Source: Candidatus Roizmanbacteria bacterium (lineage in GTDB: Bacteria > Patescibacteriota > Microgenomatia > UBA1406 > GWC2-37-13). From it: a stretch of DNA of 64,000 bases. The position numbers and the translations under genes were made by a program. The DNA is taken from assembly GCA_016215445.1 (NCBI GenBank), contig JACRJL010000003.1:528924-592923 (forward strand). Direction: 5' to 3'. Shown piece after piece: positions 28,939 through 53,253 of the stretch (its first letter is position 1; each line of letters begins with the position of its first letter). The notes beneath the pieces are model-generated. The model was not told the origin of the DNA and made no database searches. It saw only the letters and a program-made list of their open reading frames with translations.

Positions 28939-28953
28939 AAGGAGTCATAGCTC
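28939..28953 (+). repeat. Partial 5' copy of tRNA-Asp
   Basis: AAGGAGTCATAGCTC, identical to 29261-29275 (2 nt upstream plus tRNA nt 1-13). Confidence 0.9.
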
Positions 28954-29016
28954 CCGTCGTCGAGAGTTCGTCACGACTGACGGGCTCGCCAGTCCTACTT
29001 TAGTTGGACGGCGAGC
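28953..29016 (+). other. Tandem twin hairpins
   Basis: CCCGTC-GTCG/CGAC-T-GACGGG (28953-28984) and GCTCGCC-A-GTCC/GGAC-GGCGAGC (28984-29016). Confidence 0.85.
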
Positions 29017-29024
29017 AATGTAAT

Positions 29025-29261
29025 ATGTTTTATACTTATGTTTTAAAAAGCATAAAAGATGATAAACTTTACGTTGGGTCGACTAGCGATTTGAAAACTA
29101 GGATAAAGTTTCATGACCAAGGAAGAGTTACAGCAACAAAAGGTAGGAGACCGCTGAAGCTTATCTATTATGAGGCATGTTTAACTAAAGATAAAGCAGA
29201 GGAAAGAGAAAGATATTTTAAAACGGGTTTTGGTAGGGGTTTCTTGAAAAATAGGATATAA
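29025..29261 (+). CDS. GIY-YIG nuclease domain protein
   Basis: MFYTYVLKSIKDDKLYVGSTSDLKTRIKFHDQGRVTATKGRRPLKLIYYEACLTKDKAEERERYFKTGFGRGFLKNRI. Confidence 0.9.
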   Translation: MFYTYVLKSIKDDKLYVGSTSDLKTRIKFHDQGRVTATKGRRPLKLIYYEACLTKDKAEERERYFKTGFGRGFLKNRI

Positions 29262-29262
29262 A

Positions 29263-29336
29263 GGAGTCATAGCTCAATTGGCTAGAGCACTTCCCTGTCA
29301 CGGAAGGGGTTGGGGGTTCGAGTCCCCTTGGCTCCG
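29263..29336 (+). tRNA. tRNA-Asp (GTC)
   Basis: Acceptor GGAGTCA/TGGCTCC; anticodon loop CTGTCAC; T loop TTCGAGT. Confidence 0.95.
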
Positions 29337-29400
29337 CAAATTATTCATGAAACTTCTAAAATCGATAGGATAAAATATTTTTTTGAGCAAAATAAGAACA

Positions 29401-51892: not shown

Positions 51893-51907
51893 GCCGCGGT
51901 GGTGGAA
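51893..51907 (+). repeat. Partial 5' copy of tRNA-Leu
   Basis: GCCGCGGTGGTGGAA, identical to 52019-52033 (tRNA nt 1-15). Confidence 0.9.
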
Positions 51908-51914
51908 GTGTTAT

Positions 51915-51971
51915 CTGTCTGTTCACGACAAAAGTCGTGATTACAGACAGTTCATCCCGCCTCAGGCGGGA
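51915..51971 (+). other. Tandem twin hairpins
   Basis: CTGTCTGT-TCACGAC AAAA GTCGTGA-TT-ACAGACAG (51915-51950); TCCCGCC TCA GGCGGGA (51955-51971). Confidence 0.9.
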
Positions 51972-52018
51972 GTATACAAGAAAGCAACTTAACAATAAGG
52001 GTATCAAAATTATAAGAA

Positions 52019-52102
52019 GCCGCGGTGGTGGAATGGTATACACGCAGGACTTAAAATCCTGTGATCGAATAGATCGTGAGCGTTCGAGTCGCTCCCGCGG
52101 CA
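52019..52102 (+). tRNA. tRNA-Leu (TAA)
   Basis: Acceptor GCCGCGG/CCGCGGC; anticodon loop CTTAAAA; long variable arm; T loop TTCGAGT. Confidence 0.95.
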
Positions 52103-52111
52103 CTTTGAGTT

Positions 52112-52263: not shown

Positions 52264-52304
52264 TGACAGCCCCGAAGGGGAGCCTTCGGCTTTCGATTCT
52301 GTCA
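52264..52304. other. Compact twin-hairpin structure with outer stem
   Basis: TGACAG [CCCC-GAA-GGGG][AGCC-TTC-GGCT] ... CTGTCA; alternative CCGAAGG-GGAG-CCTTCGG. Confidence 0.75.
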
Positions 52305-52308
52305 AGCC

Positions 52309-53253
52309 TCACACTTTTGAGATTATGGATTTTAATTGTTTGAGGGAGTTTTCATTGTAAATTGAGATCTCCAAAATACGGGTTTTAAGAGTTCTAAGTT
52401 CATCACCCTTCTTTTTTATTTCCTTTTCACCGACCAAATCAATTTTTGTCAACAATATTATTGATTTTTTCTGTAAAAGTTTTTCGTTATAGCTTTTTAG
52501 TTCATTAATAACAGTGTTGTAATCGCCTAAAATGTCTTTTGACTCAACTGATATACAGTGGAGTATTAAATCTACCTTTTCAATATGTTTTAAGAACTTT
52601 ATTCCCAGACCGCGCCCAATAGATGCTCCTTCAATTAAACCAGGAACGTCTGCTATGATCTTTCCTTCATAAACACCGAGGTTTGGTTCAAGAGTGGTGA
52701 ATGGATAGTTGGCTGTCCTGACATTGGCGGCAGTCAGTTTATTAAGCAAACTACTCTTTCCCGCATTGGGAAGTCCAATTAAGCCGAAGTTAGCGATTAG
52801 TTTCAAAATCAGTTTAATTTTCCTTTCTTCACCCTCTTCTCCTGGCTCAGCGTATTTGGGAGTCCGATTAGTAGAAGATTTAAAAGCAACATTTCCTTGT
52901 CCTCCGGCTCCGCCCCGGCAAAGCAATACCCTCGAGCCATCTTCACTTATAGTTGCTTCTTCTTTTGTCGAAACATCAATAATTGTTGTTCCAATCGGTA
53001 CCTTAAGAATTAGCTCCTTTCCGTTCAAACCTGATCTTTTGTTTTGTCCGCCTTGTTCTCCATTTTCCCCTATAAATTTATTTACTTCGACAAATGCTTT
53101 AAGATGAGTGACATTTGAAGTGGCCATTACCCAAACATCGCCCCCATTTCCTCCATTACCGCCAGAAGCTCCTCTTCTATTTCTAAAAAAAGCCACTCTA
53201 CCTGATCCGCCGTGGCCGCCTTTCACTTTTATTTCCGCCTCATCTATGAACAT
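52309..53253 (-). CDS. obgE: GTPase ObgE
   Basis: Gly-rich Obg fold; GLPNAGKSSLLNKLTAANVRTANYPFTTLEPNLGVY. Confidence 0.96.
   Translation of the reverse strand: MFIDEAEIKVKGGHGGSGRVAFFRNRRGASGGNGGNGGDVWVMATSNVTHLKAFVEVNKFIGENGEQGGQNKRSGLNGKELILKVPIGTTIIDVSTKEEATISEDGSRVLLCRGGAGGQGNVAFKSSTNRTPKYAEPGEEGEERKIKLILKLIANFGLIGLPNAGKSSLLNKLTAANVRTANYPFTTLEPNLGVYEGKIIADVPGLIEGASIGRGLGIKFLKHIEKVDLILHCISVESKDILGDYNTVINELKSYNEKLLQKKSIILLTKIDLVGEKEIKKKGDELRTLKTRILEISIYNENSLKQLKSIISKV

Follow-up and report, generated by a model that had tools for sequence, protein, structure and literature searches.

Just upstream of a tRNA-Leu gene in a Patescibacterium, positions 51908-51971 appear, with a probability that we place at about two in three, to be a copy of an ORF-less mobile element of ~60-100 nt that is composed of two hairpins and inserts into the loops of tRNA genes. 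Coordinates refer to the 64,000-nt window, i.e., the whole stretch of DNA that was analysed, unless a contig is named, and all features given below lie on its forward strand. The element has a defined anatomy and belongs to a family that is specific to tRNA loops, shows covariation, is patchily present at orthologous genes and occurs in tandem arrays. The sequence comparisons described here lend good support to its classification as a non-autonomous hairpin element that targets tRNAs.

The gene concerned, an intact tRNA-Leu(TAA), was located at 52019-52103 by ARAGORN and by a match to Rfam RF00005. An earlier note on this DNA had equated 51893-51907 with nt 1-15 of the tRNA, and the identity is exact to the base: GCCGCGGTGGTGGAA forms a 5' remnant that extends up to the D-loop, and the 15-mer has only two sites in the 940-kb genome, the remnant and the intact gene. 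Considering that ~2e-5 such 15-nt matches are expected by chance within 500 bp upstream of any of the 45 tRNAs, a chance origin of the copy is excluded. The remnant is absent in three related genomes (G013, G003, and G008). It is followed by the inserted element, E (51908-51971), which a covariance model, R1, matched over 51910-51971 with 57.7 bits. Folding of the locus (z -7.3; 0/200 shuffles) returned the twin hairpins that the note had described. Hairpin 1 (51915-51952; fold and covariation) has a 15-bp stem with a conserved 2-nt bulge on its 3' side (ATTAC opposite GTT), and hairpin 2 (51955-51971; TCCCGCC TCA GGCGGGA) has a 7-bp stem with a 3-nt loop and holds the same position in relatives. 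Since GTATACA, directly after hairpin 2 (51972-51978), equals tRNA-Leu nt 18-24, i.e., the tRNA sequence picks up again, the hairpins interrupt the D-loop of what is a partial tRNA copy. G004 (GTATACACG) and G012 (TGGCAT) show this resumption as well. The termini of E are not inverted repeats of one another, and joining the flanks, as in GGAATG-E-GCATA, restores the tRNA without duplicated bases, i.e., there is no target site duplication at the ends of E.

From hairpin 2 to the intact tRNA the spacer measures 47 nt (51972-52018), the length that had been estimated. Beyond the resumed tRNA sequence, 51979-52018 is in part a decayed copy of the leader/promoter region that precedes the remnant; the spacer aligned to the left flank with 51 identities over 75. 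Because of this resemblance, the duplicated piece probably held the leader as well as the tRNA. The spacer occupies the place of the GIY-YIG ORF in ORF-bearing relatives, and three-frame translation revealed neither an ORF nor an ORF relic in it, in keeping with the element having been called ORF-less. A self-splicing intron was considered and rejected, as a complete, uninterrupted tRNA-Leu follows and a search of ten element loci, among them L333 and L328, gave no match to an Rfam intron. A second ORF-less remnant lies nearby at 52265-52312, 5 nt downstream of the intact tRNA-Arg. It corresponds to the 3' portion of tRNA-Arg(TCT), the T-arm, whose loop a hairpin (CCGAAGGGGAGCCTTCGG) divides, and is a mirror image of the Leu structure. 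Elsewhere in the same genome (G000 C2:90490-90770; L027, L046), nt 26-84 of tRNA-Leu(CAG) recur in degenerate form just downstream of the intact gene.

The genome-wide scan that had been proposed, for tRNA 5' fragments accompanied by twin hairpins, uncovered a recurrent family; a scan for exact fragments catches the best cases only, and decayed remnants need alignment. Starting from seven aligned elements, we built R1 as a covariance model of the Leu-type hairpin 1. In the seven-element alignment, six pairs of the stem show compensatory changes, and both the ends (AACT/AGTT, within CTCAACT...AGTTAGT) and the 2-nt bulge are conserved. Across 64 distinct copies, 97.9% of pair cells were standard and 142 cells held double changes, compared to 34.3 ± 5.0 in shuffles, in an alignment (A4) that was fitted to the model, so that these pair counts lean towards R1. 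A small MAFFT alignment gave 17 double changes as opposed to 6.3 ± 1.9. From these alignments and the model searches, we consider the Leu-type hairpin to be a sequence family of its own. Copy number ranges from one R1 element in the genome under study, where (as in the window) the Leu element is the only strong match, to eight in G035. In G012, the 47-nt hairpin 1 is identical in tRNA-Leu(TAA) and tRNA-Leu(TAG) and follows nt 15 of both genes, which could reflect gene conversion between similar tRNA 5' halves. Hairpins of any kind were modestly enriched near tRNAs (34 of 290 flanks vs. 9 of 400 controls, at a score of 20), and hairpins alone are therefore not diagnostic. Weaker R1 matches (~22-34 bits; at ~1501 of L335, L334, L348, L347, L336, and L351) were also observed directly 3' of Rho-independent terminators. 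The genes downstream include purF, one for a DAHP synthase and a GreA-like gene, and each match is followed by a larger hairpin; it may be that a related repeat, or a leader RNA not yet recognised, is involved.

R1 elements were present in 38 of the 72 genomes and 19 of the 34 genera of the bacterial family, and were rare elsewhere in the class. Within the genus, strong copies were found only at tRNAs, namely Leu (TAA, TAG, CAG, CAA, and GAG), Thr-Arg, Arg-Ala and Val. Among 46 further copies, 36 lay within 200 bp of a called tRNA and most of the remainder were still inside tRNA remnants. The position is nearly always a D-, anticodon or T-loop next to an intact tRNA: antisense copies occupy T-loops (Val, Pro, Leu, Ala, Arg, and others), the T-loop of tRNA-Tyr is occupied in the sense orientation, and anticodon-loop insertions occur at tRNA-Thr (anticodon-loop cases include L418 and L419). 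Nearly all copies have TG or CG as the last two bases of the left flank, e.g., GGAATG, GACTTG, or GGTTCG immediately before the insertion. About half of the copies run antisense to their tRNA and keep the strand-specific bulge. Orientation is set by the target sequence and not by transcription, which points to recognition at the DNA rather than the RNA level.

The Leu-Thr-Arg tRNA cluster is conserved, and filled and empty forms of its tRNA-Leu gene occur within one genus. The Leu element is present in the genome under study (G000), G012, G004, and G002, and the filled sites have a spacer in common. It is absent from G013, G003, G008, G019, and others, which carry the same cluster without an insert. 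In G013, the best sequence match to this cluster, the promoter-like TGGTATAATATTAAT is kept and stands directly before the tRNA. These comparisons, all of them between species, suggest that the Leu-type element has been mobile. In G035 (L381-L385), the unit E + tRNA[18-24] + leader + tRNA[1-17] is repeated in tandem arrays, with a leader specific to each locus: at tRNA-Leu(CAA) the array has a period of 157 nt and three copies, and at tRNA-Leu TAG, CAG, and TAA there are two or more.

A locus of similar layout within the window surrounds tRNA-Asp. It comprises a 5' remnant of the tRNA (AA plus nt 1-13; 28939-28953), twin hairpins (28954-29015), a GIY-YIG ORF of ~78 aa with the catalytic residues kept (29025-29261; PF01541, 3.3e-17; alignment), and the intact tRNA-Asp (29263-29337; ARAGORN). 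The Leu order is alike minus the ORF, and the coordinates of both loci bear out the common order that had been noted. The further likeness that had been noted, CGAC/GTCG in the upper stem of both first hairpins, did not hold up as homology: the upper part of the Leu-type hairpin is not conserved, the motif changes arms between the Leu and Asp loci, and a search of the Asp locus with R1 returned nothing. A single sequence family for the Asp and Leu hairpins was thus ruled out.

The genome under study (940 kb in three contigs, 97% complete) has seven GIY-YIG genes, one of them UvrC-like by length; of the remaining six, five have a tRNA within ~150 bp. At tRNA-Phe (C3:295394-295800; L050) and tRNA-Lys (C2:41550-42030; L052), the intact tRNA is followed by the GIY-YIG ORF and then by a 3' tRNA remnant in which a short hairpin takes the place of the middle, a portion of the anticodon/D region. 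Hairpins separate the tRNA from the ORF at tRNA-Asn and tRNA-Ser. Among 20 genomes of the genus, 36 of 79 short GIY-YIG ORFs were within 300 bp of a tRNA (~4.6% expected), and all 36 were on the strand of that tRNA. In the upstream class of these elements, the remnant begins with tRNA nt 1 and is interrupted in a loop by a hairpin, the tRNA resumes, and an ORF then runs into the 5' end of the intact tRNA, its stop codon often lying inside the tRNA. A search of named genomes with the Asp protein gave 80 loci, of which 31, from many Patescibacteria lineages, adjoin a tRNA; 29 of these are co-oriented with the tRNA and just upstream of it. One locus in Beckwithbacteria (L270) has an ORF-bearing element at tRNA-Leu(TAA). 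At the tRNA-Asn of G013 (L216), an ORF-less remnant has a spacer that still encodes the 20 C-terminal residues of a GIY-YIG protein (QLKSYQGRKFIRELLKSIPL*), with the stop codon inside the intact tRNA-Asn and the same hairpin as an ORF-bearing locus in G002; this comparison indicates clearly that an ORF-bearing element decayed to an ORF-less one at that site. A Leu-type hairpin was clearly seen beside a GIY-YIG gene only in L365 (1344-1960), where tRNA-Tyr is followed by an R1-type hairpin in a T-loop remnant and then by a GIY-YIG ORF, 125 nt from the R1 element. The GIY-YIG hairpins themselves were observed to have common cores. One, like CCTGCCCGCAACGCT...AGCGTTGCAGGCGGG, recurs in various Patescibacteria lineages whichever tRNA is host (L251, L253, L262, L267, L276, L281, L306, and others), and a second, CGTCGAGACTTTGTCACGAC, with small changes, is common to our Asp locus and to Val and His loci elsewhere.

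These distributions bear on how the Leu structure is to be explained. That it is a decayed tandem tRNA duplicate without any insertion, or a product of chance, is scarcely credible. A partial tRNA copy does exist at Leu, and partial tandem duplication is part of the structure, but in many genera unrelated tRNAs carry homologues of the hairpin pair, and the expected number of chance matches is, as given above, ~2e-5. The earlier note's simplest reading, a MITE-like derivative mobilised in trans, fared better in part: an ORF-less, recurring insertion with a distribution of the non-autonomous type stands, while descent from the GIY-YIG element at Asp is not supported, as the hairpin sequence differs. 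The same difference makes it improbable that the Leu structure is a solo remnant, i.e., an Asp-like GIY-YIG element from which an internal deletion removed the ORF. Such loss does occur, as the relic in the G013 tRNA-Asn spacer attests, the overall order is alike, and L270 has an ORF-bearing element at the same Leu(TAA) isoacceptor; however, the Leu spacer gave no relic in three frames, the Asp hairpins give no R1 match, and dozens of ORF-less copies make up a distinct Leu-type hairpin family.

It is likewise improbable that the hairpins are vertically inherited leader or trailer RNA structures of tRNA operons, which would have arisen by tandem duplication and decay and been kept for processing or transcription control. 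Compensatory changes do imply selection on pairing, the elements are located between promoter and tRNA, and similar hairpins follow terminators upstream of purF and other genes. A role in the transcript is, however, hard to reconcile with the half of the copies that are antisense while retaining the same strand-specific bulge, with patchy presence at orthologous genes, and with a location nearly always inside a tRNA loop copy. A somewhat better candidate, though still an unlikely one, is a repeat of the REP/REPIN kind, moved by a Y1 transposase (RAYT, IS200/IS605-type) acting on single-stranded hairpins, for which tRNA loops would be single-stranded targets. Short bulged palindromes, the lack of a target duplication, and insertion after a short motif in hairpin loops would all fit, and Y1-domain proteins of ~220 aa occur in 15 of the 20 genus genomes, including the one under study. 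Nevertheless, no R1 match was found within ~1 kb of the 16 Y1 genes checked, which weakens Y1/RAYT as the obvious mobiliser; no Y1 gene was found in G004 (81% complete), which has two strong elements; and the element ends, CTCAACT and AGTTAGT, have no GTAG or CGTC tag.

We therefore return to a mobile element that targets tRNA loops, for which the following course of events may be envisaged. The conserved ends of hairpin 1 and its 3' bulge would form a putative protein recognition site. Insertions stand 3' of a TG or CG, in the D-loop of tRNA-Leu, in a T-loop on either strand or in an anticodon loop, and the element is not bordered by a target duplication. A partial duplication of the tRNA, from the gene end to the inserted loop, accompanies each insertion that survives and leaves one of the two tRNA copies as an interrupted remnant and the other intact; at Leu, the unit E + tRNA[18-24] + leader + tRNA[1-17] sits between nt 17 and 18 and rebuilds the tRNA. 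To our knowledge, no nameable transposition reaction accounts for the origin of the partial duplication. An enzyme acting in trans presumably moves the Leu-type element. A GIY-YIG endonuclease is our leading guess, at a little under even odds, because the two kinds of element have the same order and use the same loops, an ORF stands beside R1 in L365, and ORF decay is seen at the tRNA-Asn of G013. Such an enzyme would most likely cut the tRNA loop, and repair would copy the unit in. Since the intact tRNA keeps the target site, repeated rounds of insertion would give tandem arrays such as those in G035. Against GIY-YIG, Leu-type hairpins almost never have such an ORF as a neighbour, and the hairpins of GIY-YIG elements differ in sequence.

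Patescibacteria have small genomes with about one copy of each tRNA, and a parasite of tRNA genes that leaves a working tRNA is therefore a striking solution. The system could be used to test GIY-YIG homing outside phages and introns, and may account for the many small GIY-YIG genes beside tRNAs in Patescibacteria. Annotators should be alert to partial tRNAs and to ORFs whose reading frame continues across the end of a tRNA. The open-access papers searched described neither a hairpin family of tRNA loops nor the order remnant-hairpin-GIY-YIG-tRNA. The family appears to be previously unlabelled; parts of its anatomy are known from REP/REPIN sequences, mitochondrial double-hairpin elements, SegB-like nucleases, and tRNA-integrating elements.

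REP/REPIN sequences with their RAYTs and CGTC repeats, e.g., the Rickettsia palindromic elements, are likewise short, non-autonomous, bulged or paired hairpins (PMC3733652), present in many copies and patchy between species. A GTAG or CGTC tag is their mark (PMC3733652); in contrast, the Leu-type element is almost wholly confined to tRNA-gene loops, has no such tag, does not lie beside Y1 genes, and arrives with a partial tRNA duplication. Mitochondrial double-hairpin elements (DHEs) have two adjacent hairpins, no ORF, and inferred mobility, and the Leu element is alike in all three respects. Unlike DHEs, it resides in a bacterial chromosome, targets tRNA loops, and keeps the tRNA intact by duplication. 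DHEs and repetitive hairpin-forming elements of mitochondrial DNA are mentioned in PMC2800124 and PMC4478555. Phage T4 SegB is a free-standing GIY-YIG homing endonuclease near tRNA genes that cuts within tRNA-containing DNA and drives tandem amplification (PMC2988022, PMC13096335). SegB-like genes and those of Patescibacteria are both small ORFs in a tRNA region with a hairpin upstream of the start codon; however, the Patescibacteria ORFs encode ~80 aa and lie between a tRNA remnant and an intact tRNA, and an ORF is lacking from the Leu element. Like the Leu element, integrative elements with attachment sites in tRNA genes leave behind both a fragment and an intact copy of the tRNA. Unlike them, the Leu element has no integrase, is ~100 nt long, holds its hairpin within the fragment, and uses several tRNA loops. 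Fragments of tRNA that stem from integration are treated in PMC9897764. UPF0213 GIY-YIG proteins (PDB 1zg2) represent the fold family of the Asp-locus ORF (phmmer, 6.7e-5), a likeness that concerns the ORF-bearing relatives only. With MITEs, the Leu-type element shares short size, the lack of an ORF, and multiple dispersed copies, but a long partial tRNA duplication takes the place of a target site duplication, and the family search found no full-length element bearing R1, bar the one GIY-YIG neighbour in L365. Another parallel in layout is the tRNA-targeted GIY-YIG element defined at Asp, with which the Leu element shares a tRNA remnant and a loop hairpin beside an intact tRNA, but neither the intervening ORF nor a homologous hairpin sequence. 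More tentatively, the two might together constitute a distinct class of bacterial element, one that targets tRNA loops, restores the tRNA by partial duplication, exists in ORF-less twin-hairpin and GIY-YIG-bearing forms, and builds arrays as nuclease-driven homing re-targets the rebuilt tRNA.
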